Assembly (NCBI RefSeq): GCF_000261365.1
Contig: NZ_AJVC01000003.1
Span: 310,001-374,000, forward strand
Origin: Herbaspirillum sp. GW103
GTDB taxonomy: Bacteria > Pseudomonadota > Gammaproteobacteria > Burkholderiales > Burkholderiaceae_D
Direction: 5' to 3'
DNA length: 64,000 nt
A program made the position numbers and the translations under genes. Numbering within the stretch: the first letter of the stretch is position 1; each line of letters opens with the position of its first letter. Positions 258 through 17,861 of the stretch are shown one piece after another. The notes under the pieces were generated by a model that was not told where the DNA came from, ran no database searches, and saw only the letters and a list, made by a program, of their open reading frames with translations.

Positions 258-1055
258 TTATTGGAAAGTGGTCGCCATCTTGGCGGGCAAGGGCACGTTC
301 AGCCATTTCTGCACGATGGCATTGAGTTCGCCATTTTTCTTGGACGCGGTCAGGACCTCATTGACCTTGTCAAGCAAGGCCGCTTCGCCCTTGTTGAGGC
401 CGACGCTGCAGCTGGATTCCTGGATGATGTACTTGAGCACCGGCTTGTTCTCAGGAGCCTTCTCGGCCAGCGCATAGGCCACGAAATCGCCGGTGCCGAC
501 CAACTGCACCTGGCCGGACACGTAGGCCGAGATCATGGCGTTGTTGTCTTCGTAGCGCTTGATGGTGGCGCTCTTGGGGGCCGTGTCGGTCAGTTGCAGG
601 TCCTGGAAGGTGCCGCGTGCCACGCCCACGGTCTTGCCCGCCAGGTCGGCCGGGCCGCTCACCTTGACTGAGGCTACCCCGAAGACGCTGTTGTTGTAGG
701 GCGCATAGGATTGCGAGAAGTCGATCACCTTTTCACGCTCGGCATTCTTGCCCAATGTGGAGATGACCAGGTCCGCCTTGTGCGTCTGCAGGTAGGCGAT
801 GCGGTTGGCGCTGGCTACAGGCACCAGTTGCACCTTCACGCCCATTTTTTGCGCGATCAGCTTGGCCACATCGATGTCCAGGCCCTGCAGTTGCAGCTCG
901 GAATTGACCGAGCCGAACGGCGCGAAGTCCTGCGGCACGGCGATGCGAATGGTGCCGGCCTTCTGGATGTCGGCCAGCGCGTCGGCCCGTGCGAGTTGGG
1001 TGGACAGGCCCAGCAGGGCCAGCGAGACGGCCAGCACCGGTTTGGCAAATTTCAT
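258..1055 (-). CDS. Polar amino-acid ABC transporter substrate-binding protein
   Basis: 265 residues. The start at 1055 is chosen because it begins a clear signal peptide (MKFAKPVLAVSLALLG..., cleavage after about residue 24 at ARA/DA) behind a GAAAGGGA Shine-Dalgarno. The longer reading frame upstream lacks protein-like character. The mature part has the family 3 binding-protein layout: an early lobe (TIRIAVPQDFAPFG), the GLDIDVAKLIAQKMG helix, the ADLVISTL strand and a C-terminal KWL helix. It should bind a polar amino acid in the periplasm. No permease or ATPase lies next to it. A paralogue converges on it from the left. The ligand cannot be read from the sequence. Confidence 0.85.
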   Translation of the reverse strand: MKFAKPVLAVSLALLGLSTQLARADALADIQKAGTIRIAVPQDFAPFGSVNSELQLQGLDIDVAKLIAQKMGVKVQLVPVASANRIAYLQTHKADLVISTLGKNAEREKVIDFSQSYAPYNNSVFGVASVKVSGPADLAGKTVGVARGTFQDLQLTDTAPKSATIKRYEDNNAMISAYVSGQVQLVGTGDFVAYALAEKAPENKPVLKYIIQESSCSVGLNKGEAALLDKVNEVLTASKKNGELNAIVQKWLNVPLPAKMATTFQ

Positions 1056-1402
1056 GTAAATCCCTTTCGTTGAATGGACTGTGTCGTGCCGGGGCGGGTT
1101 TGCAATGACCATGCCAGGCCTGGCGCGGGAGCGGCGGCCCGGTTGCCAATGCGCCGCAACAGGCGCCCGCGCTATCGTCCGGGATGGTGCCGATCCGGCA
1201 TGATGTGATGCCGATATGGACTGGCCGATGGAGGGGCAAGGTCGGGGCGATGTTGGGGCGGGCGGGCACCAAGTTTGTACCTGTCCCGGAGAGTGATAAT
1301 GTGATCGCCCGCCTGGCGCGGCACGAAAAAAAACCACGGATCACACCGTGGTTCTGCTCAACGGCCGGGTCGTGGCCGCGCCCGTGAAGGGGACGGGGCG
1401 CT
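1056..1402. other. Intergenic region without a gene
   Basis: This gap holds the upstream region of the leftward binding-protein gene and, at its right end, the terminator of the cysteine desulfurase gene. I see no convincing coding frame; those present are GC-rich shadows. Confidence 0.6.
1326..1353 (-). terminator. Rho-independent terminator of the cysteine desulfurase gene
   Basis: Perfect 8-base arms (1332-1339 and 1346-1353) with a 6-base loop. On the minus strand the hairpin is followed by eight T residues (A-run at 1326-1333 on the plus strand). It lies about 50 bases beyond the stop of the leftward gene. Confidence 0.85.
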
Positions 1403-2608
1403 TCAGTCGCCGGTCAGTGCGGCAGCCTCGACTTCATGCGCCAGCACTTGTCGTACGGTGGCCACGACATAGTCGATCTCGGCCTCGCTGGTACCGCGTC
1501 CCAGCGAGAAGCGCACGGCATTGCGCGCCACCTCGGGCGAGCGGCCAATGGCCAGCAGCACGAAGGAAGGGGCCGACGCCGCCGAGTTGCAGGCTGAGCC
1601 GGCCGACACCGCAATGCCCAGCAACTGGCTGCCCAGCGTGCCATAGCGCGTGGGCGGAAAGCTCACGTTGAGGTTGTGCGGCACGCGCGCCTCGGCGCTG
1701 CCGTTCAACTGTACGCCCGGCAAGTTCGCCAGGCCCGACCACAGGCGGTCGCGCAGGCAGCGGATGCGGCGTCCTTCTTCTTCCAGCAATTCTCCCGCCA
1801 GCGCAAAGGCCTCGCCCATGCCCACGATCTGGTGTGTGGCCAGGGTGCCGGAACGCATGCCGTTTTCATGGCCGCCGCCATCGATCTGCGCTTCCAGTGT
1901 CAGATCCGGGGTGCGACGCACGTACAGGGCACCGATACCCTTGGGGCCATAGACCTTGTGCGCCGAGAAGGACATCAGGTCTACCTTCAACTGCTGCAGG
2001 TCGATGGCGATCTTGCCGGCAGCCTGCACCGCATCCACGTGAAAGATCACGCCGCGTTCGGCACATACTTCGCCCAGTTCGGCAATCGGCTGTATGACGC
2101 CGATCTCGTTGTTCACATACATCACCGAAACCAGCAGCGTATCCGGCCGCAGTGCCGCGCGCAGCTGCGCTGCCGTGATCAGGCCGTCTGCATCGGGCTG
2201 CAGGATGGTGACCTCGAAGCCCGATTTCTCCAGCGTACGCATGGTGTCCAGCACGGCCTTGTGTTCGGTCGCTACCGTGATGAGATGCTTGCCTCGCCCC
2301 TGGGCACGCAGCGCGTGGGCACTGCCTTTTAGCGCCAGGTTGTTGGATTCGGTCGCCCCCGAGGTCCAGATGATTTCATCGGCCCGGGCACCGACCAGGC
2401 CCGCCACTTGTGCACGTGCCCGGTCGACCGCGCGCCGCGCCTCCCAGCCAAAAGGATGGGAACTGCTGGCCGCATTGCCGAACTTCTCCGTGAGGAAGTC
2501 GCACATGACGCGGGCCACACGCGGGTCAACCGGCGTGGTGGCGCCATAGTCCAGGTAGATGGGGAAACGAAGATCGGCCGACGGGCCGCAGGGAGCAGGG
2601 GCGTTCAT
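1403..2608 (-). CDS. Cysteine desulfurase, IscS/NifS family
   Basis: 401 residues, a pyridoxal-phosphate enzyme that removes sulfur from cysteine as a protein persulfide. Visible hallmarks: the N-terminal [14 protein letters not shown] segment; [14 protein letters not shown] in the cofactor site; [10 protein letters not shown]; the Schiff-base lysine in [10 protein letters not shown] (about residue 209); and the active-site loop cysteine in SAGSACNSA (about residue 335). The loop is the longer class I type. The gene stands alone, without iscR, iscU or hscBA, so it is probably a second desulfurase for a dedicated purpose rather than the housekeeping iscS. It is divergent from the LysR gene at 2911 and has its own terminator. 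Confidence 0.9.
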
Positions 2609-2910: not shown

Positions 2911-3849
2911 ATGGACCTGAACCAGCTGGAGGCCTTTGCTGCTGTAATGACCCTGGGCAGTGTGACCGGTGCCGGCCGCAGCCTGGGCCGTTCGCAGCCG
3001 GCCGTCAGCAAGGCCATCGGTGATCTCGAGGCCGAGCTGGGCTATGCCCTGTTCGATCGCAATGGTCCGCGCGTCACGCCCACGGCGAAGGCTTTTCTGC
3101 TCTATGAAGAGGTGGAGCGCTCGCTGGTGGGCCTGCGCAGCATCCGCGAGCGTGCGCAGGAGATCGCCCGCGAAGAAGTCCATCCCGTGCACCTGGTGGC
3201 GACGCCTGCCCTGGCCTCGACCATCGCCCCGGCGGCCCTGCAGTTGCTGGCTGCCGACAGGGAGCGAGCCTTCCCCGAACACGTCCACCTGCGCAGCGCC
3301 TCGGCCGAGCAGGTGGTGCATGCAGTCCTGCACCGTACCGTCAGCCTGGGGCTGACCTCGCTGCCGGTGGCCCATCGCGGGCTGGAGCTGCACTGGATCG
3401 GCGAGGCACCCTGCGTGGCGGTGGTGCGCGCCGACCATCCGCTGGCCGGTCGCGACAAGCTCACCCGCGCGGCCCTGCGTGGCCAGCGCGTCATTACCAT
3501 GTCCAACCGCTATCGCCTGCGCCAGCGCGTGGAGTTGGCGCTGGGCGAAAACAGCCAGCTCGATGTGGCCATCGATACCAATACCTCCTTCAACGCCATC
3601 ATGGCCGCCCGTGCCGGGCTGGGGGTGGCGCTGGTGGAGCCGGCCACGGCCTATGGCATGCCCATCGAGGGCATGGTGGTCAAGCGCCTGGCGGTGGAGA
3701 TTCCGTTTTACTTCGGCGTGGTCACGCCCTATGGCAAACCGGTCGAAGGCGTCACGCAGCGCCTCATCGATGCCGTGGAAAAGGCCGCCCGCATGACCTT
3801 GCAGGGCTTCGTCAAGCGCGATGCCAGCCTGCATGACGAATTGTTGTAA
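2911..3849 (+). CDS. LysR-family transcriptional regulator
   Basis: 312 residues. The N-terminal winged helix-turn-helix is plain: LNQLEAFAAVMTLGSVTGAGRSLGRSQPAVSKAI, followed by the wing LGYALFDRNGPRVTPTAKA. The remainder (about 90-300) is a type 2 periplasmic-binding-fold effector domain. An AAGGA Shine-Dalgarno lies 11 bases before the ATG. It is transcribed in the same direction as the monooxygenase/peptide-transporter operon that begins 132 bases downstream, so it is the obvious candidate regulator of that operon. It also diverges from the cysteine desulfurase gene. The inducer is unknown. Confidence 0.9.
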   Translation: MDLNQLEAFAAVMTLGSVTGAGRSLGRSQPAVSKAIGDLEAELGYALFDRNGPRVTPTAKAFLLYEEVERSLVGLRSIRERAQEIAREEVHPVHLVATPALASTIAPAALQLLAADRERAFPEHVHLRSASAEQVVHAVLHRTVSLGLTSLPVAHRGLELHWIGEAPCVAVVRADHPLAGRDKLTRAALRGQRVITMSNRYRLRQRVELALGENSQLDVAIDTNTSFNAIMAARAGLGVALVEPATAYGMPIEGMVVKRLAVEIPFYFGVVTPYGKPVEGVTQRLIDAVEKAARMTLQGFVKRDASLHDELL

Positions 3850-3981
3850 ATGATTTGGCAGCACGCAGTTAGAACCCAAGCAAGCAGCGTCAACCGGGAA
3901 GGGCGTTGCATCACAAAACCCGAATCGAGACGATCGCAGGCCCTTGCCCGCGACGTCTCTTCATGCTTTTGACGAGGCGCT

Positions 3982-5454
3982 ATGCACGAGACCGAACCGA
4001 CCCTGATCCCCGCTGCTCCCCCGCAAGGACTGGCTGCCCTGGAGGCGCGCCTGCGCCAGGACCTGCAGTGGCTGGCGCTGCCCGGCAAGTCGTGGACCCC
4101 GGCCATCCTGCGCGACGGTGTGCCGGTGATCGACGTGGCCATCATCGGCGGCGGCCAGGCCGGCATGGCCGCCTCGGTGGCGCTGTCGCACCTGGGTATT
4201 CCCAATGTGATCTACGACCAGTCGCCCAAGGACTTCGAAGGCCCCTGGGCCACCACCGCGCGCATGGAAACCCTGCGCTCGCCCAAGACCCTGACCGGTC
4301 CCGCACTGGGCTTCCCGGCGCTGACCTTCCGTGCCTGGTTCGAGGCCCAGTTCGGGCTGGACGCCTGGGAAGCGCTGGACAAGATCCCGCGCCTGCAATG
4401 GATGGAGTACCTGCGCTGGTTCCGTCGCGTCATGCAGCTCGATATCCGCAACGAACACCGCGTGCTGGCCGTGCAGCCGCGCGCCGATGGCATCGTGGCG
4501 CTGCAGCTGCAATCGCCTGCGGGCACATCGACCGTGCTGGCGCGCCGCGTGGTGGTGGCCACCGGCCGCGACGGCCTGGGTGGCGCCTACCTGCCGCCGC
4601 TGGCCGATCAGTTGCCGCGCGATCGCTGGGCACATTCCTCGGACCTGTTCGACTATGCCAGCCTCAAGGGCAAGCGCGTGGGCGTGATCGGTGGTGGCGC
4701 CTCCGCCATGGACAGTGCTGCCACCGCACTGGAAGAGGGGGCTGCGCGAGTGGATATGCTGATCCGCCGCAAGGACCTGCCGCGCATCAACAAGGGCAAG
4801 GGATCGGGCAGCCCCGGCCTGGTTAACGGTCACCTGCACCTGTCGGACGAATGGAAGTGGCGCATCCGCCACTACGTCAATGCGCAGCAGGTGCCGCCGC
4901 CCTCCGGCAGCACCCGCCGCGTCTCGCGCTTTGCCAATGCACGCTTCCTGCTGGGCACCGCCATCGAATCGGTCAAAGTCAAGCCGGACGGCACGCTGCT
5001 GCTGCAGACCAATCGCGGCCCGCTGGAACTGGATTTCCTGTTCTTCTCCACCGGCTTCAAGATCGACTGGAGCCTGCGTAGCGAATTCAAGGACATCGCC
5101 CCGCACATCCTCAACTGGAGCGACCGCTACACTCCGCCGGCCGGCGAAGAAGACCAGGAGCTGGCCGACTCGCCCTACCTGGGGCCGGCATTCGAGTTCC
5201 AGCAAAAGACCCCGGGCAGCCTGCCGGGCCTGGAGCGCATACATTGCTTCTGCTATCCGGCGGCGGCCAGCCATGGCACGGTTTCCGGCGACATCCCCGC
5301 CATCAGCGATGGTGCCTACCGCCTGGCGCAGGGCATTGCTGCACTGATGTACGGCGAAGACGTGGAGTATCACTACCGCAATATCCAGTCCTATGAAGAA
5401 CCGGAACTGGAAGGCGACGAATGGAGCGAATCGCCCTGGGAGCTGCCCGCATGA
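3982..5454 (+). CDS. FAD/NAD(P)-binding oxidoreductase, flavin monooxygenase-like
   Basis: 490 residues, soluble. A first Rossmann motif (VAIIGGGQAGMAAS, about residues 52-65) for FAD is followed by a second dinucleotide motif (VGVIGGGASAMDSA, about 233-246) for NAD(P)H. The order and spacing fit the class B flavin monooxygenase/TrkA-like group, which oxygenates soft N or S atoms. I do not see the exact class B fingerprint, so the reaction is inferred. GAGG precedes the ATG at a short distance. The stop overlaps the next start (ATGA), tying it to the peptide ABC transporter. It is the first structural gene of the operon and the likely oxidation step for the imported compound. Confidence 0.8.
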   Translation: MHETEPTLIPAAPPQGLAALEARLRQDLQWLALPGKSWTPAILRDGVPVIDVAIIGGGQAGMAASVALSHLGIPNVIYDQSPKDFEGPWATTARMETLRSPKTLTGPALGFPALTFRAWFEAQFGLDAWEALDKIPRLQWMEYLRWFRRVMQLDIRNEHRVLAVQPRADGIVALQLQSPAGTSTVLARRVVVATGRDGLGGAYLPPLADQLPRDRWAHSSDLFDYASLKGKRVGVIGGGASAMDSAATALEEGAARVDMLIRRKDLPRINKGKGSGSPGLVNGHLHLSDEWKWRIRHYVNAQQVPPPSGSTRRVSRFANARFLLGTAIESVKVKPDGTLLLQTNRGPLELDFLFFSTGFKIDWSLRSEFKDIAPHILNWSDRYTPPAGEEDQELADSPYLGPAFEFQQKTPGSLPGLERIHCFCYPAAASHGTVSGDIPAISDGAYRLAQGIAALMYGEDVEYHYRNIQSYEEPELEGDEWSESPWELPA

Positions 5455-6425
5455 GTGCAGCGATCGCAAAGAGCGTGTTGCAGGCGCTGATGGTGGTGCT
5501 GTTGATGACGGTGATCGTCTTCTTCGGTCTGCACATGATCGGCAATCCGGTCGATATCCTCATCGGCCAGGATGTCGATCAGGTGGACCGCCTGCGCATC
5601 ATCCAGGAACTGGGACTGGATCAGCCGGTGTGGCGCCAGTACCTGGCCTTCCTCAATGGCGCGCTGCACGGCAATCTGGGCAACAGCTTCGTCTACAACA
5701 CTCCGGCCATCCTGCTGATCTTCCAGCGCCTGCCGGCCACGCTGGAACTGGCCTTGGCGGCATTGCTGCTGGCCTTGCTGGTCGGGGTGCCGCTGGGGCT
5801 GTTGGCGGGCATGAAGCCGGATCATCCCTTCTCGCGCCTGGTGATGACCACCAGCATCTTCGGGTTTTCGCTGCCGACCTTCTGGATCGGGCTGATGTTG
5901 ATCATGGCCTTCTCGGTCACGCTGGGATGGCTGCCTTCGGGCGGACGCGGCCAGACCGCCCAACTGTTCGGTGTGCAATGGTCGTGGCTGACTGCGGACG
6001 GCTGGCGTCACATGATCCTGCCGGCCATCAACCTGTCGCTGTTCAAGATTTCGCTGGTCATTCGCCTTACCCGCGCCAATGTGCGTGAGGTGCTGCCGAT
6101 GGACTACGTGAAGTTCGCCCGTGCCAAGGGCTTGTCCCCGGCGCGCGTGGTGCTGATGTACGTGCTGCGCAATACGCTCATCCCGCTGGTGACCGTGGTC
6201 GGGCTGGAGTTCGGCTCCACCATTGCCTTTGCGGTGGTCACGGAAAGCATCTTTGCCTGGCCTGGTGCGGGCAAGCTGATCCTGGACAGCATCAACGCAC
6301 TGGATCGTCCTGTCATCGTGGCTTACCTGATGGTGATCGTCTGCATGTTCGTCACCATCAATCTGGTGGTCGATGTGCTCTACAAATTGTTGGACCCGCG
6401 TGTGCGGGTGGAGGCCCGTGCATGA
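5451..6425 (+). CDS. Peptide/nickel-type ABC transporter permease, DppB-like
   Basis: 324 residues, with six or so membrane helices and the long periplasmic loop after the first helix typical of DppB/OppB. The binding-protein-dependent transport signature sits at ARAKGLSPARVVLMYVLRN (about residues 222-240) and should contact the ATPases. The ATG at 5451 is preferred because it overlaps the previous stop (ATGA); an in-frame ATG at 5421 would give an unlikely 30-base overlap. It pairs with the permease at 6422 to form the membrane pore. Confidence 0.9.
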   Translation: MSAAIAKSVLQALMVVLLMTVIVFFGLHMIGNPVDILIGQDVDQVDRLRIIQELGLDQPVWRQYLAFLNGALHGNLGNSFVYNTPAILLIFQRLPATLELALAALLLALLVGVPLGLLAGMKPDHPFSRLVMTTSIFGFSLPTFWIGLMLIMAFSVTLGWLPSGGRGQTAQLFGVQWSWLTADGWRHMILPAINLSLFKISLVIRLTRANVREVLPMDYVKFARAKGLSPARVVLMYVLRNTLIPLVTVVGLEFGSTIAFAVVTESIFAWPGAGKLILDSINALDRPVIVAYLMVIVCMFVTINLVVDVLYKLLDPRVRVEARA

Positions 6426-7384
6426 GCGCGCCGCAGACCGAAGTGACGATGACGCAAGAACAGGTGCGCGCCCGCGTGGCCGAGCTGTCGGCCTTCCAGG
6501 CCCCGCGTCGCGAGTCCCCATGGCGGCGCGTGATGCGCCATTTCGTGGCCTCGCGTTCGGCCATGCTGGGACTGGTGATCGTGCTGCTGCTCATCGTCGG
6601 CGCCATCGCTGCTCCGTGGATCACGCCGCAGAATCCGTATGACCTGATGCAGCTCGATGTGCTTGATGCACGCCTGCATCCTGGCACGATTAACGGTGCA
6701 GGCAGCTTTACCTATTGGCTGGGCACCGATGGCCAGGGCCGCGATCTGGTCTCGGCCATTCTCTATGGCCTGCGCATCAGCGTGGGCATCGGCGTGGGCT
6801 CAGCCCTGATCGCCGGTGTCATCGGCACGCTCATTGGCCTGCTGGCCGCGTATGCCGGTGGCAAGGTCGATACGCTGCTCATGCGCTTTGCCGACCTGGT
6901 GTTGTCCTTCCCTTCGATCCTGGTGGCAATGCTGATCCTGGCCTATGTGGGCAAGGGCATCTTCAACGTGATGGCCACGCTGGTGGTGCTGGAGTGGGCG
7001 TATTACGCGCGCACCGCACGCGGCCAGGCACTGGTGGAGCGGCGCAAGGAATACGTGGAGGCCGCGCGCGGCCTGAATCTGTCGTCCTGGCGCATCATGG
7101 TGCGCCACATCCTGCCCAACTGCCTGCCGCCGCTCATCGTCATCGGTACCTTGCAGGTGGCGCGCGCCATCACGCTGGAGGCGACCTTGTCCTTCCTCGG
7201 CCTGGGGGTGCCCATTACCGAACCCTCGCTGGGCCTGCTCATCTCCAATGGTTACCAATACATGCTCTCGGGCGAATACTGGATCAGCTTCTATCCCGGC
7301 ATCACGCTGCTGGTGGTGATCGTGGCCATCAACCTGGTCGGTGACCGCCTGCGCGACATCCTCAACCCACGGTGGCAGAAATGA
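6422..7384 (+). CDS. Peptide/nickel-type ABC transporter permease, DppC-like
   Basis: 320 residues. The N-terminal cytoplasmic tail and first helix (about 41-60) match the OppC N-terminal domain, followed by the conserved GTDGQGRDLVSAILYGLRIS segment. The permease signature is EAARGLNLSSWRIMVRHILPN (about residues 218-238), and the family ending LNPRWQK is present. The start overlaps the preceding stop as ATGA, so translation is probably coupled. It works with the 5451 permease and the two ATPases that follow. Confidence 0.92.
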   Translation: MSAPQTEVTMTQEQVRARVAELSAFQAPRRESPWRRVMRHFVASRSAMLGLVIVLLLIVGAIAAPWITPQNPYDLMQLDVLDARLHPGTINGAGSFTYWLGTDGQGRDLVSAILYGLRISVGIGVGSALIAGVIGTLIGLLAAYAGGKVDTLLMRFADLVLSFPSILVAMLILAYVGKGIFNVMATLVVLEWAYYARTARGQALVERRKEYVEAARGLNLSSWRIMVRHILPNCLPPLIVIGTLQVARAITLEATLSFLGLGVPITEPSLGLLISNGYQYMLSGEYWISFYPGITLLVVIVAINLVGDRLRDILNPRWQK

Positions 7385-8373
7385 GCGCGCCTACTCTTGA
7401 GGTGCGCAATCTGCGCACCCATTTCTTTACCCCCGAGGGTGTGCTGCCGGCGGTGGATGACGTCTCGCTGTCGGTCGGGCGGGGTCGCATTCTCGGCCTG
7501 GTCGGTGAATCCGGATCGGGCAAGAGCGTGACCGGCTTTTCCATCCTCGGCATGGTCGATGCGCCGGGTCGCATCGTCGGCGGCGAGATCCTGTTCCAGG
7601 GACGTGACCTGGTCAGCATGGACAAGACTTCGCTGCGCGAGCTGCAGGGCAATCGCATCGCCATGATCTTCCAGGACCCGATGATGACCCTGAACCCGGT
7701 CCTGAAGGTGGAGGCGCAGATGGTCGATGCCGTGCTGGCGCACAGCAAGGTCGGCCGCCAGCAGGCGCGCGAACTGGCCCGTGACACTCTGGGCATGATG
7801 GGTATCGCCAGCCCGGAGGAACGGCTGCAGGCCTATCCGCACCAATTGTCGGGCGGCATGCGTCAGCGCGTGGCGATTGCCATCGCGATGCTGCACAAGC
7901 CTGACCTCATCATCGCCGATGAACCCACCACCGCGCTGGATGTGACCATCCAGGCGCAGATCCTGTCGGAAGTGCAGAAGCTGGCGCGCCAGCATGGCAC
8001 CGCGCTGATCTGGATCACGCACGACCTGTCCGTGGTGGCGGGCCTGGCCGATGAAGTGGCGGTGATGTATGCCGGGCGCATCGTCGAGCAGGGCAGTGTG
8101 GATGCGGTGCTGGATGCGTCGCTGCACCCCTATACGCAGGGCCTCATCGGCAGCCTGCCCAGCAACAACCGGCGCGGTGCGCGTCTGCGCCAGATTCCCG
8201 GGATGACGCCCAACCTGCTGCACCTGCCGCCGACCTGCGCCTTCGCTGCCCGCTGCGAGCGCCTGTCCCGGCAGTGCCTGGTGGCCCCCGCGATCAGCGA
8301 GCCACTGCCGGCGCACCGGGTGCGCTGCCATCACCCCATCCCAAGCACACAGAGCAACGAGCACCATGGATAA
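7381..8373 (+). CDS. Peptide/nickel-type ABC transporter ATP-binding protein, DppD-like
   Basis: 330 residues. Walker A GESGSGKS (about 42-49), signature LSGGMRQR (about 157-164), Walker [13 protein letters not shown] and the H-loop THDLSVV are all intact. A C-terminal oligopeptide-transporter cysteine patch ([14 protein letters not shown]) is the type that binds a 4Fe-4S cluster in some DppD proteins. The ATG at 7381 overlaps the previous stop; a GTG at 7372 is the alternative. It powers the importer together with the second ATPase, whose gene overlaps this one by 8 bases. Confidence 0.92.
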
Positions 8374-9373
8374 GGCCGTCATCCCTCTGATCGAAACCCG
8401 CGCCGTCAGCCGCCGCTTCGGCGAGCGCCGCCAGGGCTGGCTGGAACGCCAGTTGCAGGCGCGCGGCTGGAGCCGACCGCCGGCCGTTACCCATGCGCTG
8501 GACCAGGTGGACCTCAGGGTCTTGCCTGGCGAAGTAGTCGGCCTGGTCGGCGAATCGGGTTGCGGCAAGTCCACGCTGGGCCGGGTGGCCTGCGGGCTGC
8601 TCGAACCTTCCGATGGCCAGGTGCTGGTCCATGGGCGCGAGCGCGCCAGCCTCAACGGCAGAGAAGAGGCCGAGGCACGCCTGCAGGTGCAAATGATTTT
8701 CCAGAATCCGTATGCCAGCCTGAATCCGCGTTTGCGCATCGACCAGATTGTCGGCGAAGCAGCGCAAGTGAATGGAAAGGTCGAGGGCGACCTCGATGCC
8801 TACGTCTGCCAGCAGTTGCTGCGCGCCGGTCTCGATCCGGCCCTGCGTGACCGCTATCCGCACCAGTTCTCCGGCGGCCAGCGCCAGCGCATCGGCATTG
8901 CGCGCGCACTCGCGGTGCAGCCGCAGATGCTGGTCTGCGACGAGGCAGTGGCGGCGCTGGATGTGTCGATCCAGGCACAGATCCTCAATCTGTTCATGGA
9001 CCTGCGTGAGCAACTGGGTCTGACCTATCTCTTCATCAGCCATGACCTGGGGGTAGTGGAGCACGTGTCGGACCGCGTGGTCATCATGTACCTGGGGCGT
9101 GTGGTGGAAAGTGCGCCGGTGGCCGAATTGTTCGGCCAGCCCAACCATCCCTACACGCAGGCGCTGCTGGCCGAGGTGCCGCGCATGGGAGCACGCAAGA
9201 AGGAATTCACCGCCATCAAGGGCGAGATCCCCAGCCCGCTCAATCCGCCCACTGGTTGCCACTTCAACCCGCGCTGCCCGCATGCCACGCAGCGTTGCCG
9301 TGAAGAGCAGCCGGTGTTGCGCGAGATCGCGCCGGGACACAGGAGTGCCTGCCATCTCAATGATGGCCGTTGA
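8366..9373 (+). CDS. Peptide/nickel-type ABC transporter ATP-binding protein, DppF-like
   Basis: 335 residues. Walker A GESGCGKS (about 61-68), signature FSGGQRQR (about 169-176), Walker B MLVCDEAVAALD and H-loop SHDLGVV are present. Note CDEAVAALD where most relatives read CDEPVSALD. The C-terminal extension with NPRCPHATQRC is the usual oligopeptide-transporter domain. Residues 10-40 carry an insert before the core (ERRQGWLERQLQARGWSR) that separates this subfamily from housekeeping DppF. A 114-base gap follows before the binding-protein gene. Confidence 0.92.
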   Translation: MDKAVIPLIETRAVSRRFGERRQGWLERQLQARGWSRPPAVTHALDQVDLRVLPGEVVGLVGESGCGKSTLGRVACGLLEPSDGQVLVHGRERASLNGREEAEARLQVQMIFQNPYASLNPRLRIDQIVGEAAQVNGKVEGDLDAYVCQQLLRAGLDPALRDRYPHQFSGGQRQRIGIARALAVQPQMLVCDEAVAALDVSIQAQILNLFMDLREQLGLTYLFISHDLGVVEHVSDRVVIMYLGRVVESAPVAELFGQPNHPYTQALLAEVPRMGARKKEFTAIKGEIPSPLNPPTGCHFNPRCPHATQRCREEQPVLREIAPGHRSACHLNDGR

Positions 9374-9487
9374 CAAGGTTTGTTGAAATGTTCTACCTAC
9401 CGTTCGGACTGAGCAAGGGGGCCGTCCAGAAAGCCCCGAACTGATGTATCCGTAGTGCTTCCACCCTGACCACAGAGGAACCCGACC

Positions 9488-11074
9488 ATGAAGAAGACCC
9501 TCCTGACCCGCCTGCTGGCCGTCGCCCTGACCGGTGCAGCCCTGGCCGCTGCCGCCGATGCGGCGCATGCGCAGAACCTGAACATCGGCTTTGCCGATCC
9601 GCTGTCCTCGCTGGATCCGCAACTGAACAACCATGCCGGTGACCGCTCCGTGGACCTGCATTTCTGGGACCTGCTGGTCCAGAACGATTACAACAAGCTG
9701 GTGCCCGGCCTGGCCGTGAGCTGGAAGAACATCGACCCCAAGACCTGGGAATTCAAGCTGCGTCCCAACGTCAGGTGGCAGGATGGCAAGCCCTTCACAG
9801 CCGATGACGTGATCTTCTCCTACCAGCGCGCCCGCGCGGTGCCGGGCAGCGTGGCCACCTTCGCCGGCTACCTGCGCACGGTGGAATCGGTCACGGCCAA
9901 GGATCCGCTGACGCTGGTCATCAAGACCAATGTTCCCAATCCGGACCTGCCGCTGAATCTGGCCTCGGTGCATATCGTGAGCAAGCACGTGGGCGAGAAA
10001 TCGACCACCGAGAACTACAACAGTGGTGCCGCGATGATCGGTACCGGCCCTTACAAGTTCGTCTCCTACATCCCGGGTGATCGCGTGGTGATGCAGCGTA
10101 ACGACGACTACTGGAATGGCAAGGCGCTGTGGGAAAAGGTCAACTACCGCTACATCAACAATGGTGCGGCGCGTACCGCTGCGTTGCTCTCGGGTGATGT
10201 GGATGTGATCGACAAGGTTTCGGTGTCGGACCTGGCCAGGCTCAAGCAGTCACCCGATATCAAGGTCTATCCCTACAACGGCCTGCGCGTGCTGCTGATC
10301 CAGCCGAGCTTCCATGAAGGCCCGAGCCCCTTCATCACCGACAACAATGGCAAGCCGCTGGAGAAGAACCCGCTGCTGGACGTGCGCGTGCGCCGTGCCA
10401 TGTCGCTGGCCATCAACCGCAAGGCCCTGATCGACCGCATCCTGCAGGGTGCGGCCACCGAGGCCAACCAGTGGATGCCGGCCGATACCTTCGGCTACAA
10501 CCCGGAGATCAAGAACATCCCCTTCGACGCTGCGCAGGCCAAGAAGCTGTTGGCCCAGGCCGGTTTCCCGGAAGGATTCAAGCTGACCATCCACGTGCCC
10601 AACGACCGCTATCCGCTGGCGCCGGAGACCATGCAGGCGGTGGCGCAGTTCTGGACCCGCATCGGCATCAAGACCCAGGTCGAGGTGCTGCCGTGGGCGT
10701 CGTATTCCTCGCGTGCCAACAAGAACGAGTTTGCCGTCTCCGTGCTGGCCTGGGGTAACGGTACCGGTGAAGCCAGCTATGCGCTGGTCAATGTGCTGGG
10801 GACGGTCGATCCCAAGAAGGGGATTGGTGCCTCGAACTGGAACCACTACAGCAGCCCGGCCGTGGACAAGGCCCTGGCCGATTCGACCGCCGAGTTCGAT
10901 GCGGCCAAGCGTGAGGCCATTCTGCGTGGTGCTGCCAAGACGGTCTCGGACGATGTGGGCGTGATTCCGCTGTATCACTACCAGAACATCTGGGCGGCCA
11001 GGAAGGGCCTGAAGGTCACTCCGATCACCAGTGACCGTACCACCGCCATGATGGTGACGCAGGACAAGAAGTAA
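9488..11074 (+). CDS. Peptide/nickel-type ABC transporter substrate-binding protein (family 5)
   Basis: 528 residues. It has a signal peptide (MKKTLLTRLLAVALTGAALAAAADAAHA, cut before QNLNIG) behind a good AGAGGAA Shine-Dalgarno. The mature protein has the family 5 layout, with the early WKNIDPKTWEFKLRPNVRWQDGKPF segment followed by the DDVIFSYQRA helix. It should capture the substrate in the periplasm for the permeases encoded upstream. The position after the ATPases is unusual for dpp operons but common in catabolic variants. The ligand may be a peptide-like or sulfur-containing organic compound; the sequence alone does not say. Confidence 0.9.
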   Translation: MKKTLLTRLLAVALTGAALAAAADAAHAQNLNIGFADPLSSLDPQLNNHAGDRSVDLHFWDLLVQNDYNKLVPGLAVSWKNIDPKTWEFKLRPNVRWQDGKPFTADDVIFSYQRARAVPGSVATFAGYLRTVESVTAKDPLTLVIKTNVPNPDLPLNLASVHIVSKHVGEKSTTENYNSGAAMIGTGPYKFVSYIPGDRVVMQRNDDYWNGKALWEKVNYRYINNGAARTAALLSGDVDVIDKVSVSDLARLKQSPDIKVYPYNGLRVLLIQPSFHEGPSPFITDNNGKPLEKNPLLDVRVRRAMSLAINRKALIDRILQGAATEANQWMPADTFGYNPEIKNIPFDAAQAKKLLAQAGFPEGFKLTIHVPNDRYPLAPETMQAVAQFWTRIGIKTQVEVLPWASYSSRANKNEFAVSVLAWGNGTGEASYALVNVLGTVDPKKGIGASNWNHYSSPAVDKALADSTAEFDAAKREAILRGAAKTVSDDVGVIPLYHYQNIWAARKGLKVTPITSDRTTAMMVTQDKK

Positions 11075-11078
11075 GCGC

Positions 11079-12410
11079 ATGCCCAACTTCTCGATTGACG
11101 TCAGCCCGGCCGACGACCTGATCGACGTACCCCGCCGCATCATCGTGCGGGGTGCGCATCCGGGCGAGCCGGTGCGCATTTCCTCGTCTACCTTGCGGGA
11201 GGGTATCGAGTGGCGCAGCGCCGCCTGCTACATTGCCGATGCCTACGGCAATGTCGACGTGAGCATGAATCCGGCCATCGATGGCGATTACTACGGTATC
11301 GATCCCATGGGGCTGCTGTGGTCGCAGAAGCCGGTGCAGGCCGGCCGGCGCGATCTCTTCCATGCCGATGTGCTGGCGCCGCTGGTGACCACGCTGACGG
11401 TCTCTTCACTGGATCAGCCCGGGCTCGCACCTTGTGTCCCGGCCAGTACCGAGCTGGTGCAACGGCTGGCCGGTGCCGGCGTGATCCGGCGCGAGGTGCG
11501 GGAGCAGGGGCTGGTCGGTACGCTGTTCCTGCCGGCCACGCCGGGGCCGCATCCGGCGGTGATGATTCTCAACGGGTCCGGTGGCGGCATCAATGAACCG
11601 CGTGCCGCGCTGTATGCGGCGCGTGGTTATGCGGCCTTTGCGCTGGCGTATTTCAAGGCGCCGGGCCTGTCGGACTACATCTCCAATACACCGCTGGAAT
11701 ATGTTGAACGCGGTCTGGACTGGTTGCGTGCCGAGGTACGTCCCTTGCACGATTTCGTCGCCATCAGTGGGCAGTCGCGCGGCGGCGAGCTGGTGTTGCT
11801 GCTGGCTGCGGTCTTCCCGCAGAAGGTCTCGGCGGTGTTGGCCTATGTACCCAGTGCCCTGGTACACAGCGGCCAGAACGCGGCTGACCCGGCCGTGGGG
11901 CGGGAAGGTCCGACCTGGTTGCTGCGCGGTGTACCCTTGCCGCATCAATGGCAGGACAACCGCACGGCCAGCTGGGCACCGTTTGACGAAGGCCCGGCCC
12001 CGCACCGTCATGCGCTGGCCATGCTGACTGCGCTGCAGGATGAGGATGCGGTGGCGCGTGCCCGCATTCCGGTGGAGAAGATCACGGCACCGGTGTTGCT
12101 GCTGTCGGCCACCGATGATGGTTCCTGGCCTTCCAGTCTGTATTGCGCGATGGTGCGTGACAAGCTGGCCGAGGTGTCGCATCGCTGGCCGGTGGTATGG
12201 CGCGACTATGCGCATGCCGGCCATTCGATTCTGTTCCCGTTTGTTCCGACCACGCAGACCACGTATGCGCACCCGGTCTCGGGGCGCATCAGTACCGGTG
12301 GCGGCGAGCCCGCCGCCAATGCCCGCGCCGATCTCGACGCCTGGCAGCAGGCGCAGCACTTCCTGCGCGAGGCGCTGGCCAGGCACACATCCACAAAGGA
12401 AATTTCATGA
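11079..12410 (+). CDS. Acyl-CoA thioester hydrolase/BAAT-family alpha/beta hydrolase
   Basis: 443 residues, no signal peptide. The N-terminal beta domain (about 1-130) resembles the acyl-CoA thioesterase/bile-acid-CoA:amino-acid N-acyltransferase N-domain. The C-terminal alpha/beta hydrolase has the nucleophile elbow GQSRGGELV, with serine rather than the cysteine of true acyltransferases, an oxyanion region at LNGSGGGINEP and a catalytic histidine in HAGHS. That points to hydrolysis of an acyl thioester or amide. It starts 4 bases after the binding-protein stop and overlaps the next gene by ATGA, so it belongs to the same transcript and probably acts on the imported substrate or its product. 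Confidence 0.75.
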   Translation: MPNFSIDVSPADDLIDVPRRIIVRGAHPGEPVRISSSTLREGIEWRSAACYIADAYGNVDVSMNPAIDGDYYGIDPMGLLWSQKPVQAGRRDLFHADVLAPLVTTLTVSSLDQPGLAPCVPASTELVQRLAGAGVIRREVREQGLVGTLFLPATPGPHPAVMILNGSGGGINEPRAALYAARGYAAFALAYFKAPGLSDYISNTPLEYVERGLDWLRAEVRPLHDFVAISGQSRGGELVLLLAAVFPQKVSAVLAYVPSALVHSGQNAADPAVGREGPTWLLRGVPLPHQWQDNRTASWAPFDEGPAPHRHALAMLTALQDEDAVARARIPVEKITAPVLLLSATDDGSWPSSLYCAMVRDKLAEVSHRWPVVWRDYAHAGHSILFPFVPTTQTTYAHPVSGRISTGGGEPAANARADLDAWQQAQHFLREALARHTSTKEIS

Positions 12411-12928
12411 GTACCCCTGTCTACGACATCAGCAAGGATGTCATCGACCAGTTGGCCGGTCTGGCCGCTGGCAGTCCCCTGCACGGCCTGCGCCATCAGC
12501 GCGACAAGGTGGCCGTGGCGTCACAGGGCAGCTATGACACCTTGTTCGATCCGGCTCTGGAGGGCATCGGCCTGGACGAGCGTCTGCTGGTGGCGCTGTA
12601 CGCCTGCCGTCTGGCGGGTGCGTCCGATCTGGCTGCGCACTACCGCGAACGTGCGCAGGCGGTGTCGGCGGATGCCGGGCAACTGGCGGTGGCTGAGAGT
12701 GGCGCGCCTGAGCAATTGCCGGAGGGCCGTTTGCGCGCCATGCTGGTCTTTACGCGCGCGTTGACGCAGCGGCCGGTGGAAGGCGACAAGGCGGCGATCG
12801 AGAAGCTGCCGGCCGCTGGCATCAGTACGCCTGCGGTGGTGGCGCTGTCGCAGCTGATCGCTTTCGTGTCCTATCAATTGCGTGTGGTCGCGGGCCTGAA
12901 GGCCATGCGTGCTGCCGCTGCCCAGTAA
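12407..12928 (+). CDS. CMD-domain protein with degenerate AhpD-type site
   Basis: 173 residues. The ATG at 12407 overlaps the preceding stop (ATGA) and has AAAGGAAAT upstream; a longer frame to 12197 would lie inside the hydrolase gene. The helical fold pattern resembles carboxymuconolactone decarboxylase/AhpD proteins, and it fits what I remember of the Avi_7170-type CMD family. The place of the AhpD CxxC-x3-H motif reads GASDLAAHY: the histidine is kept but both cysteines are lost. It is probably a structural or substrate-binding partner of the intact AhpD-like protein encoded 11 bases downstream. Confidence 0.75.
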   Translation: MSTPVYDISKDVIDQLAGLAAGSPLHGLRHQRDKVAVASQGSYDTLFDPALEGIGLDERLLVALYACRLAGASDLAAHYRERAQAVSADAGQLAVAESGAPEQLPEGRLRAMLVFTRALTQRPVEGDKAAIEKLPAAGISTPAVVALSQLIAFVSYQLRVVAGLKAMRAAAAQ

Positions 12929-12939
12929 GGAGAGTCGAC

Positions 12940-13545
12940 ATGAGCGACATCATCAAGGCCAATGGCTTTACCAATGAGTCCCTGGAGTGGGATGCCTGGC
13001 TGGATGTGATCCAGCTGGAAGCGGCCAGTGAGGACCAGATCAAGGTGCTGGAAGAAAGCCATCCCAAGGCCAAGACCTCGGACTATTACCTGTTTCTGGC
13101 GCATCAGCCGGACATCCTGCGTCAGCGCTCGGCTGCATTCAACGCCATCATGTATGCGCCAGGCGGGTTGTCGCGCGCCGAGCGGGAGCTGGGTTCGCTG
13201 GTGGTTTCGCGTATCAATGGCTGTGTGTATTGTGCGTCGGTCCATGCACAGCGTTTTGAGCAGTTGGCCAAGCGTAACGATACGGTTCGGCAGGTGTTCG
13301 ATTCGCCTTATGGGGCAGGGGTGGATGCGCGCGAGCAGGCCATCGCCAAGTTCTCGGCGGAACTGACCGAGACGCCTGGTGATATCAGCGCCGGGCAGAT
13401 CAAGGCACTGTATGACGTGGGCTTGAACGAGCTGGAAGTGCTGGATCTGATTCATTCGGTGGCCATCTTCGCCTGGGCCAACCGCTTGATGCTCAACCTG
13501 GGTGAGCCGGTGTTTGCCGATGGCAGCAAGGCTGAGGCCAAATAA
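12940..13545 (+). CDS. AhpD-like alkylhydroperoxidase-domain protein
   Basis: 201 residues, behind a strong AAGGAGAG Shine-Dalgarno. The AhpD catalytic set is complete: a glutamate (ERELG) twelve residues before the first cysteine of CVYCASVH, giving E-x11-CxxC-x3-H. In this family the cysteines reduce peroxides and are recycled by a dihydrolipoyl protein. It fits the peroxidase-related Avi_7169-type family that I recall as paired with the CMD protein encoded just upstream. A lipoyl carrier gene follows 22 bases downstream, which makes a physical electron-donor relationship plausible. Cytoplasmic. Confidence 0.85.
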   Translation: MSDIIKANGFTNESLEWDAWLDVIQLEAASEDQIKVLEESHPKAKTSDYYLFLAHQPDILRQRSAAFNAIMYAPGGLSRAERELGSLVVSRINGCVYCASVHAQRFEQLAKRNDTVRQVFDSPYGAGVDAREQAIAKFSAELTETPGDISAGQIKALYDVGLNELEVLDLIHSVAIFAWANRLMLNLGEPVFADGSKAEAK

Positions 13546-13567
13546 TCATTTGCATGAGGAGACTGTG

Positions 13568-13945
13568 ATGCACATTCCGGATCATCTGGTCTATGCCGAT
13601 ACCCATGAGTGGGTGAAGCTTGAAGACGACGGGACACTGACCATCGGTATTACCGATTTCGGTCAGGAACAGTTGGGGCCGCTGGTGTATGTGGATATGC
13701 CAGCGGTGGGCAAGGTGTTGGCACAGGGGGCTGAATCGGGCATCGTCGAGTCCAACAAGACAGCTTCTGATCTGCATGCGCCTGTTGATGGGGAGGTGAT
13801 TGCTGTCAACGAGGTGCTGCTTGATGCGCCTGATGCCATCAATGCGGCGCCTTATGAACAGTGGATCTTCAAGCTGAAGCCGGCTGTGCCTTTCTCTGCT
13901 GATGGGTTCCTTGATGCGGCTGGTTACATCAAGCTGATTTCCTGA
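13568..13945 (+). CDS. GcvH-like lipoyl carrier protein
   Basis: 125 residues, behind GAGGAG. It has the whole GcvH fold: DHLVYADTHEWVKLEDDGTLTIG, the ITDFGQEQLGPLVYVDMP segment and the hairpin carrying the lipoyl lysine in ESNKTASDLHAP (about residue 63). Canonical GcvH reads ESVKAASD, so Asn and Thr flank the lysine here. It is not beside gcvT or gcvP. It sits last in an operon of transport, oxidation and AhpD genes, so it probably carries a lipoyl arm for that pathway rather than for glycine cleavage. The coordinates assume the ATG at 13568; an in-frame ATG lies upstream at 13502. Confidence 0.85.
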   Translation: MHIPDHLVYADTHEWVKLEDDGTLTIGITDFGQEQLGPLVYVDMPAVGKVLAQGAESGIVESNKTASDLHAPVDGEVIAVNEVLLDAPDAINAAPYEQWIFKLKPAVPFSADGFLDAAGYIKLIS

Positions 13946-13954
13946 CTTGTTCCC

Positions 13955-14810
13955 GTTGCTGGTTGATGTTGTCTTGGCGGGCTTGTGTTTTTGGTTTTGG
14001 TTTTTGGGTAGTCTGCACGGATTGCTGTTCTGCGCTCTAGCTTAATACTTATCATTCTCCGGTCGGAACGGAGCGCCGGGGGCGGCCCGGCAGCCGCTCA
14101 CTTTTCTTGTCTCGCCAAGAAAAGTAAGCAAAAGAAGGCGACCCCAGAGAGCCAGCCCTCCTACGGAGGGTCCCCGCCGCAGCGGAGCGAAAAGTGGGAA
14201 GGATAGAGTCGCTACGCTCCGACTATCCTTCTGATCCACTTTTCGCTCCGCTGCGACGGCTGGCTCTATGGGGAAGAGTCCACTCGGGCTCGCCTGCGGC
14301 CTCGCCGGGTCTCCGACTCGCCTTCGGCTTTGTGTTGGCTCGCCTGTGGCATCGATTTTTTCTTCGATCAACGTCCTGATTTGGTTTTTATTGTTTAAAT
14401 TATTAATGTTCTTTCGTCCTGAGTAGTCGCGCAGCGACGTATCGAAGGCGAAAGAACGCCAACGCAAAGCCGAAGGCGAGGCGTTTAGGTCGTCCGCATC
14501 TGCGCCGCCGATTCAGAAGGCGACAAAACGGATCAGAAAAATAGTCGGAGCGAAGCGACTCTATTTTTCCCGTTTTGTTGGCTTCTGAATCGGGGACCCT
14601 CCGAAGGAGGGCTGGCTCTCTGGGGTCGCCTTCTTTTGCTTACTTTTCTTGGCGAGACAAGAAAAGTGAGCGGCTGCCGGGCCGCCCCCGGCGCGTCCTC
14701 CCGACCGGAGAAAGATAAGCATTAAGCTAGAGCGCAGGAAGAAATTCCGTGCAGACTACCCAAAAACCAAGCCCGCCAAGACAAAAAACCAAGCAAGATC
14801 AACCAGCAAC
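13955..14810. repeat. Nested inverted-repeat intergenic element, copy A
   Basis: A non-coding element of about 856 bases. Left and right arms of roughly 240 bases are near-perfect reverse complements. They run from GTTGCTGGTTGAT (13955-13967)/its complement (14798-14810) inward through TAGTCTGCACGGA, the CCGGTCGG block, a CTTTTCTTGTCTCGCCAAG block and an AAGAAGGCGACCCC block. Between the arms lie further hairpins: about 14176-14262 (CGCAGCGGAGCGAAAAGTGG and its complement) and about 14510-14595 (CCGATTCAGAAG...CTTCTGAATCGG). No transposase or convincing coding frame is present. It lies between the convergent gcvH-like and LysR genes and probably ends transcripts from both sides. A near-identical copy is at 27268-28143 in the same orientation. 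Confidence 0.85.
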
Positions 14811-16916: not shown

Positions 16917-17861
16917 TCAGGGCTGGCGACAGTCGCTGAGCATCTCCGCCTGGGAGATGTTGCTGCCCGGCGGCACGCTGTGCGTGAGCCAGACATTGCC
17001 GCCGATCACCGATCCCTGGCCAATGGTAATGCGCCCCAGCAGGGTCGCGCCGGCATAGACCACTACGTCATCCTCGACGATGGGATGGCGCGCAATGCCC
17101 TTGACCAGTGAACCATCGGCCTCCTGCGGGAAACGCTTGGCCCCCAGCGTCACGGCCTGGTACAGGCGCACGTTGCGGCCGATGATGGTGGTCTCGCCGA
17201 TGACCACGCCGGTGCCATGGTCGATGAAGAAGCTGGGGCCGATCTGCGCTGCCGGGTGGATGTCGATGCCGGTGGCCGAATGCGCAATGTCGGCAATCAG
17301 ACGTGCCAGCAGCGGGGCCCCCAGCTGATGCAGCGCATGCGCCAGACGGTGATAGATGATCGCGGTGGTGCCGGGATAGCACAGCAGGATTTCCGAGATG
17401 CTGGAGGCGGCCGGATCGCCGTGATACGCAGCCTGGATGTCGCTGACCAGAATGTCACGCACACCCGGTAACCGATGCGCGAAGTCGCGCGTGATGGCCG
17501 CGGCGCGTTGGCGCAGCAGCGCCTCATCGTCCACATCACTGCTGAAATAGAGGCTGCGACGTACCTGCTCGCGCAGGATCGACAGCGCAGCATTCAACTG
17601 GCTGCCAACGAAATAATCGATGGTCTCATCGGATAAATCGGTATGCCCATAATGCGTGGGAAACAAGGCCGCCTGCAGATGTTGCAGCAGCTTTTGCATC
17701 GCTTCACGCGAGGGGAGCTCGCGGATCTCGCCGCGATAGCGGATCTTGTGGGTAATCTCGCGCGAGGTGCGCAGGCCGGCCACAACGGCTGACAAGCCCA
17801 GTCCCGCCGACTCGACCGAGTCGGTCAGCGCGTTCAGTTCGGGGGTGTGAGAAGGTTCCAT
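16917..17861 (-). CDS. Serine O-acetyltransferase-like protein (EpsC/CysE family)
   Basis: 314 residues. An N-terminal helical region (about 1-150) precedes a left-handed beta-helix built from hexapeptide repeats: GIDIHPAAQIGPSFFIDHGTGVVIGETTIIGRNVRLYQAVTLGAK. The HGTGVVIGE loop is the serine acetyltransferase active-site signature. The C-terminal repeats TIGQGSVIGGNVWLTHSVPPGS complete the acetyl-CoA site. It should make O-acetylserine for cysteine synthesis. It is longer than classic CysE and closer to the EpsC type. No cysK is nearby. It ends tail to tail with the MFS gene, without a visible terminator. Confidence 0.85.
   Translation of the reverse strand: MEPSHTPELNALTDSVESAGLGLSAVVAGLRTSREITHKIRYRGEIRELPSREAMQKLLQHLQAALFPTHYGHTDLSDETIDYFVGSQLNAALSILREQVRRSLYFSSDVDDEALLRQRAAAITRDFAHRLPGVRDILVSDIQAAYHGDPAASSISEILLCYPGTTAIIYHRLAHALHQLGAPLLARLIADIAHSATGIDIHPAAQIGPSFFIDHGTGVVIGETTIIGRNVRLYQAVTLGAKRFPQEADGSLVKGIARHPIVEDDVVVYAGATLLGRITIGQGSVIGGNVWLTHSVPPGSNISQAEMLSDCRQP

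Follow-up and report, generated by a model that had tools for sequence, protein, structure and literature searches.

A lipoyl H protein orphaned in a CMD/AhpD redox operon of Herbaspirillum

What is the H protein of the glycine cleavage system doing in a bacterium that appears to have no glycine cleavage system? The question is raised by an operon of Herbaspirillum sp. GW103, whose genus is plant-associated; it was found in a 64,000-nucleotide stretch of contig NZ_AJVC01000003.1 (positions 310,001 to 374,000 of the forward strand; this whole stretch is called the window, and all coordinates are counted along it). Ten genes on the same strand occupy positions 3982-13945, preceded by a LysR gene at 2911-3849, and the last of the ten (13568..13945, + strand) encodes a GcvH-like lipoyl carrier (PF01597, 120 bits) with a predicted lipoyl lysine, K64, in the motif ESNK. 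Its start is the ATG at 13568, with GAGGAGA upstream; the start in the list of open reading frames, 13502, is too far 5′. An earlier note on this DNA proposed a catabolic pathway for the operon and overlooked what we regard as the main point, namely that this GcvH is an orphan in a genome without a glycine cleavage system. The finding is real, and the last gene of the operon is more interesting than the catabolic guess. What we describe is an orphan lipoyl H protein within a redox operon, the GcvH-bearing form of which is a genus-level variant.

In the source genome, which is 99.99% complete, the gene at 13568..13945 is the only PF01597 match, and profile searches gave no match to GcvP or to GcvT. 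Among 34 genomes of the genus, 29 have an operon-type GcvH (65-100% identity) and 30 have the AhpD-like protein of the operon (80-100% identity), these being the same 29 together with one more genome, G023. None of the 29 that carry both genes has GcvP or GcvT over the cut-off. Across all 34 genomes, GcvP (PF02347) and GcvT (TIGR00528) exceed their cut-offs in G023 alone; below the cut-offs there is a single GcvP match of 19 bits in G032, and the best GcvT match outside G023 is one of 137 bits (cut-off 236) in G013. The same GcvP search was positive in 17 of 27 genomes sampled outside the genus. GcvH matches are absent from G015, G016 and G026, which are 98-100% complete, and from G027, which is 63% complete and holds an AhpD-like relative at 43% identity. 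G023 has a GcvH of a different type (46% identity) that adjoins its GcvP and carries the motif ESVK. This glycine cleavage system (locus L083) is the only one in the genus sample, and its GcvH is very divergent, with a terminal branch of 1.0, which may reflect horizontal gain. It is very likely that the operon GcvH is not used for glycine cleavage, and in this genus the name that it takes from that system is very probably wrong.

We then counted synteny in the operon loci of 29 further genus genomes in addition to the window. All 11 genes are present in 26 of the 29 relatives; two of the remaining loci are cut by contig ends (L068, and the draft locus L059, where the CMD match spans only residues 1-82 of 173), while the third, L074 of G023, lacks GcvH only. 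In 28 of the 29 relatives, as in the window, GcvH stands immediately 3′ of the AhpD-like gene, the exception again being G023, and 27 of 28 loci have a gap of 7-57 bp between the two genes, the 28th value being an artefact. Because the same order is read in 29 further genus genomes, it is not the product of chance. A scan of named genomes for GcvH, in which at least 586 stretches matched by pattern, 536 were confirmed and the best 80 were kept, found 20 loci with an ESNK-type GcvH beside AhpD. Nineteen are titled Herbaspirillum (H. huttiense, H. aquaticum, H. robiniae, H. frisingense, H. chlorophenolicum, H. autotrophicum, H. rhizosphaerae, H. lusitanum and further strains) and one is a metagenome-assembled genome (MAG) titled Duganella; these 20 are the same genomes as those of the genus set and are not added to its counts.

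The carrier itself has a recognizable sequence. The lipoyl lysine position K64 is invariant in the aligned operon GcvHs, and ESNK appears in 28/28 operon rows of the alignment, the single row from a glycine cleavage locus reading ESVK; among the named loci, ESNK occurs in all 20 beside AhpD and in 0/60 of the others. In a comparison of 49 operon rows (29 distinct) with 92 others, where the operon group was chosen by ESNK itself and coincides with the operon loci, residue 63 before the lysine is N in the operon GcvHs and V in 91 of the 92 other rows. Nine residues are fixed or nearly so in the operon group and occur in no more than 10% of the remaining rows: G32, Q35, N63, H70, A90, A94, Q98, F109 and F114. 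H70 aligns with Tyr-70 of the E. coli H protein (3a8i, assuming numbering without the first Met), a residue that, in simulations described in a portion of PMC7733448, bonds the aminomethyl group on its way to the T protein. Such changes may reflect a new partner. The protein is otherwise an H-protein family member by its PF01597 score, by K64 and by its alignment with 3a8i up to residue 124 of 125, while the partner proteins GcvP and GcvT and the motif ESVK, taken as typical from the rows compared here and not from a published definition, are missing. The operon GcvHs form one group in the tree (support 94, not starred), and their dN/dS of 0.05-0.21 against eight relatives indicates purifying selection, so the gene is being maintained.

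Some GcvHs elsewhere deserve mention in their own right. The closest outside Herbaspirillum among the best 80 of the 536 are at 59% identity and read ESVK (L202, L203 and L204, from betaproteobacterial or unplaced MAGs); the surrounding DNA has no glycine-cleavage match and no AhpD, and in L202, where families were scanned, GcvH lies near a sulfatase and an IlvD-type dehydratase. A second set, mostly from methanotrophs, reads ESVKTASDL and has no nearby match to GcvP or GcvT (L212, L217, L221, L223, L228, L234, L237, L242-L245, L249, L257 and L258), and is possibly another orphan group. The 161 plasmid GcvH records are all below 60% identity.

How did the genus come by this gene? When nine operon proteins were joined and placed on a quick tree, with Caballeronia, Variovorax and the genome G308 as the root, G023 fell among the other members of the genus (SH-aLRT 99 and 97). 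Since the outgroup operons are also without GcvH, the simplest history is that the operon-bearing Herbaspirillum gained GcvH once, at their base, and that G023 later lost it. That loss falls in the sole lineage of the genus found with a glycine cleavage system, a telling coincidence.

The neighbour of GcvH is the natural candidate for its partner. The AhpD-like, peroxidase-related protein (12940..13545, +; PF02627) belongs to TIGR01926, at 212 bits against a cut-off of 81.8, with a CxxC...H active-site motif (CVYCASVH) and upstream glutamates; E81, E83, C95, C98 and H102 are invariant in 29 aligned sequences. Its 182.1 bits against TIGR04030, the Avi_7169 family, are below the cut-off of 233.15 and leave it outside that family. 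Just upstream is a CMD-domain protein of the Avi_7170 family (12407..12928, +; TIGR04029, 108.8 bits, above the cut-off of 100.75), which has no CxxC and no Pfam match even at an E value of 1. In three loci outside the genus (L133, L139 and L148) CMD and AhpD-like parts share one open frame or annotated gene of 360-378 amino acids, which suggests that the pair acts as one unit.

The pathway that we propose would run as follows. The Opp/Dpp-type importer of the operon would take up a small organic compound, on which the FAD flavoprotein, most likely a monooxygenase, and the BAAT-type serine hydrolase would act, and the CMD/AhpD-like pair would handle the reactive oxygenated product, a peroxide or a sulfenate. 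GcvH, no longer engaged in glycine cleavage, would be lipoylated on K64, its dihydrolipoyl arm would reduce the AhpD-like protein at its CxxC disulfide, and lipoamide dehydrogenase (Lpd) with NADH would reduce the arm again, so that electrons would pass from NADH to Lpd, to lipoyl-GcvH, to AhpD/CMD and finally to the oxidised product. The source genome has LipA, a pyruvate dehydrogenase (PDH) E2 that adjoins a lipoamide dehydrogenase carrying its own lipoyl domain, and a 2-oxoglutarate dehydrogenase (OGDH) E2; with LipA, Lpd and the conserved CxxC present, such a chain is possible. There is also precedent, since AhpD of M. tuberculosis is described in part of PMC8945050 as being reduced by a lipoyl protein and Lpd. 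We put the probability that GcvH is a lipoyl redox donor to the AhpD/CMD pair at about 50%. We infer the lipoylation, the transfer from GcvH to AhpD, the flavoprotein reaction, the oxidised product and the substrate.

Several observations weigh against this electron-donor role. A profile of the AhpD-like protein was run against 398 genomes of the phylum, 44 of which matched at E ≤ 1e-20, the window's own included, and an outside set of 34 loci was assembled from 28 better-matching loci of 24 genomes and six named plasmid loci. CMD is present in all 34 of these, a flavoprotein relative in 17, a LysR relative in 10 and the BAAT hydrolase in three, while GcvH is matched in none. The three with the hydrolase, in Caballeronia sp. 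SBC2, Variovorax sp. PDNC026 and G308, have the whole operon except GcvH. Because both these full sister operons and the wider CMD-AhpD loci are without an adjacent GcvH, the AhpD-like enzyme does not need a carrier of its own. The lipoyl domains of the PDH and OGDH E2 proteins could serve AhpD instead, and part of the biochemistry and role of AhpD is not firmly established according to the same portion of PMC8945050. Histidine at position 70 is also found in 7 of the 92 other GcvH rows, the flavoprotein could, judging from its modelled fold, be a reductase and not a monooxygenase, and the case of G023 is a single event.

A general rule that GcvH stands beside AhpD was thus rejected outside the genus on the count of 0/34, and the 60 other named GcvH loci of the best 80, in which the surrounding DNA has no AhpD, CMD or flavoprotein match and the residue before the lysine is always V, count against it as well. 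The earlier note had asked how often the monooxygenase, importer, hydrolase and GcvH-like genes accompany AhpD in other genomes: the association is strong inside the genus (29/34 genomes) and fails outside it for GcvH. What recurs in the loci scanned is CMD with AhpD, usually together with a flavin enzyme, a unit to which GcvH has been added at the level of the genus. The flavoprotein-bearing outside loci include Caballeronia, Variovorax, Burkholderia, Azospirillum, Rhizobium and Ensifer, and in some of them flavoprotein, CMD and AhpD keep company with other importers, of amino-acid type in Rhizobium etli and, judged by gene order, of branched-chain type in Azospirillum. Of the 17 outside loci without the flavoprotein, three were scanned, and all three have a luciferase-like TIGR04027 protein (520-567 bits, cut-off 413) beside CMD-AhpD; the earlier note, which tied the CMD/AhpD pair to importers of peptide type and to a luciferase-like monooxygenase, named a link that is real. 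A literature search on the Avi_7169-type families by name gave nothing relevant, and the matches listed when Herbaspirillum was combined with gcvH, glycine cleavage, alkylhydroperoxidase or desulfurase contained nothing on this operon.

Do genomes with the AhpD core also tend to have glycine cleavage? All 24 source genomes of the outside loci encode GcvH and GcvP elsewhere. GcvP is thus found in 24/24 genomes with the AhpD core against 319/373 of the rest (Fisher p 0.027, uncorrected for kinship and uncontrolled for genome size), a link that is suggestive only and to which we give little weight; the base rate in the phylum sample, 343/398, is close to that of the AhpD-core genomes and is a further point on the side of the doubters. 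Perhaps, in these other bacteria, an ordinary GcvH moonlights as the donor, hence the lack of an operon copy and hence the loss in G023, while in Herbaspirillum GcvH was freed from its complex genus-wide and repurposed as a dedicated AhpD carrier. We hold this account tentatively, and the odds are somewhat against it.

The lipoylated succinyltransferase E2 that serves mycobacterial AhpD is DlaT. The mycobacterial trio of AhpD, lipoylated succinyltransferase and Lpd resembles the Herbaspirillum operon in its CxxC enzyme of the AhpD family and in having a lipoyl protein and Lpd as the proposed source of electrons, as set out in part of PMC8945050. There, however, the lipoyl protein is the E2 of a 2-oxoacid dehydrogenase, which also serves metabolism, and AhpC is involved, whereas Herbaspirillum has a free GcvH in the operon and no AhpC there. 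Another likeness is the GcvH-L of the SirTM operon in Staphylococcus and Streptococcus, a GcvH-like protein outside glycine cleavage whose operon also encodes an oxidoreductase and a protein resembling flavin monooxygenases; S. pyogenes, too, is without a glycine cleavage system (both from a portion of PMC4518038). The differences are that GcvH-L lacks one helix of canonical GcvH, according to the same portion of PMC4518038, while the Herbaspirillum protein aligns almost to its end, and that the Herbaspirillum operon has the AhpD/CMD pair and the importer where the SirTM operon has OYE. Membership of the SirTM type was rejected, as Pfam and NCBIfam searches of the operon and four flanking proteins found no sirtuin, macrodomain or LplA2. 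LbpA of the sHdr pathway, described in part of PMC6067878, is likewise a GcvH-like lipoate-binding protein with a job other than glycine cleavage, but membership here was rejected as well: the operon and the four flanking proteins include no hdr-like or lipoate-ligase neighbours, and the conserved cysteine pair is absent. The Avi_7169/Avi_7170 - KPN_01858 cluster (TIGR04030, TIGR04029, TIGR04027) shares CMD, an AhpD-like protein, a flavin enzyme and often a nearby Opp-type importer, and differs in that the Herbaspirillum operon has another flavoprotein in place of the luciferase-like one, an AhpD-like protein that is below the cut-off for TIGR04030, and the BAAT hydrolase and GcvH in addition. 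Finally, in the S-alkylcysteine salvage by CmoO and CmoJ, flavin enzymes acting on a sulfur compound yield a sulfenic acid that needs reduction (part of PMC10863075); we cite it solely to illustrate the type of chemistry and claim no homology.

If the lipoyl arm does not serve AhpD, it may serve another enzyme of the operon, either exchanging electrons with the flavoprotein as an NAD(P)H reductase or monooxygenase, or carrying acyl or one-carbon groups for the BAAT hydrolase. The flavoprotein (3982..5454, +) is an FAD/NAD(P)H enzyme, either monooxygenase-like or disulfide-reductase-like, and when its predicted structure was compared by VIA-align, bacillithiol disulfide reductase and flavin monooxygenases matched equally well. 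This fold comparison weakened the monooxygenase label; the odds for the lipoyl carrier are unchanged because they do not rest on the fold of the flavoprotein. A disulfide-reductase role is not favoured by its cysteines: the only two, C422 and C424, are in an HCFC motif, with no CxxC of the thioredoxin-reductase kind. HCFC is kept in 27/27 genus loci and in 8/17 outside relatives, the rest mostly reading CFN, and it was rejected as a redox pair since the second cysteine is replaced in 9/17 of those relatives. Every locus that bears GcvH, moreover, has it immediately after the CxxC protein, and transfer from a lipoyl protein to AhpD has precedent. A service to the flavoprotein or the hydrolase is thus unlikely, though it is the strongest of the rivals.

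A sulfur-carrier role is less probable again. Divergent from the LysR gene lies a gene for a cysteine-desulfurase-like aminotransferase of class V (1403..2608, - strand; PF00266, 265 bits), which might load sulfur on the lipoyl arm or unload it, much as has been discussed for LbpA in the sHdr pathway, itself a GcvH-like carrier of a sulfur pathway (from part of PMC6067878). Of the 29 genus loci, 27 have this gene beside the LysR gene and the other two are cut short. Its product scores below the cut-offs of the PRK14012/IscS models (535 and 522 bits) and could thus be a paralogue with a dedicated role. However, no hdr, DsrE or TusA family is found among the operon proteins, the pair of cysteines conserved in LbpA is lacking (there are 0 or 1 cysteines in 28 operon GcvHs and none in that of the window), and G023 retains the desulfurase-like gene without the operon GcvH.

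It is more doubtful still that GcvH persists because it acts as a relay or substrate in the lipoylation of PDH and OGDH, as in Bacillus subtilis, with its place beside AhpD incidental. Relay roles for GcvH in other bacteria are described in a portion of PMC6067878, but the near-complete G015, G016 and G026 manage without any GcvH, so the genus should be able to lipoylate its proteins in its absence; these three also lack the operon AhpD-like gene, the only other operon gene searched for there. That GcvH is an ordinary glycine-cleavage H protein whose P and T proteins went unrecognised is scarcely credible, for although the NCBIfam gcvH equivalog model just accepts it (119.2 bits, cut-off 115.85), 33 of the 34 genus genomes have neither GcvP nor GcvT over the cut-off, both are recovered from G023 by those same searches, and V63 to N, Y70 to H and the other changes set it apart from ordinary H proteins.

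With GcvH as a redox donor to the AhpD/CMD pair still the preferred reading, what might the substrate be? The conserved divergent desulfurase-like gene, together with the precedents for flavin enzymes that yield sulfenic acids, makes an organosulfur compound a tentative guess, one rather more apt to prove wrong than right. The desulfurase-like gene is possibly linked to the operon, and a sulfur link of the operon is hinted at by it; as a general part of the CMD-AhpD core the gene was rejected, there being no match at E 1e-10 in any of the 34 outside loci. The region flanking the operon has a cysteine-metabolism flavour in this species. Positions 258-1058 (- strand) encode a binding protein of amino-acid or cystine type, below the cut-off of both models, and positions 16917-17861 (- strand) a serine O-acetyltransferase-like protein (EpsC model, 155.8 against 150). 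The downstream LysR neighbour is present in only 8 of 29 genus loci, the coverage downstream being shorter.

The remaining genes of the operon fit the uptake of a small molecule. The LysR-type protein at 2911..3849 (+; PF03466, PF00126) is the probable regulator and is syntenic across the genus. After the flavoprotein come an OppB/DppB-type permease (5451..6425, +, starting at 5421 in the list of open reading frames; PF00528, 142 bits), an OppC/DppC-type permease (6422..7384, +; PF00528, PF12911), an OppD/DppD-type ATPase (7381..8373, + and 7372 in that list; PF00005, PF08352) and an OppF/DppF-type ATPase (8366..9373, +; PF00005, PF08352), followed by a family-5 substrate-binding protein, SBP_bac_5 (9488..11074, +; PF00496, 317 bits), which gives 83 bits against TIGR04028 (KPN_01854), far under the cut-off of 468. 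The serine hydrolase (11079..12410, +; PF04775, PF08840) is of BAAT or acyl-CoA thioester hydrolase type, and its GQSRGG motif suggests a serine nucleophile. The intergenic gaps within 3982-13945 do not exceed 114 bp and several junctions have ATGA overlaps; on this layout, from the gene list and its coordinates to the single direction, our re-reading and the family matches bear out the earlier note in full. Three proteins tried in a PADLOC search for defence systems had no match, and a scan for promoters and terminators gave counts close to those of shuffled sequence.

Just 3′ of the operon, at 13969-14784, is a large imperfect palindrome with 260-nt arms that are 85% complementary and 282 nt apart, with nested hairpins. 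Four exact copies of its 25-nt core lie in the window, arranged in two inverted pairs at 14101/14642 and 27409/27978, and there is probably a second element of this kind near 27.4-28.0 kb (about 27400-28010).

Lipoyl proteins are known mainly from a handful of complexes, and a few free GcvH-like carriers with other jobs have been described, that of the SirTM operon and LbpA. If the reading given here is true, an orphan found genus-wide and still named automatically as a glycine cleavage H protein would be another setting for free lipoyl carriers, and it would point to a source of electrons for the CMD/AhpD families found alongside flavin enzymes.

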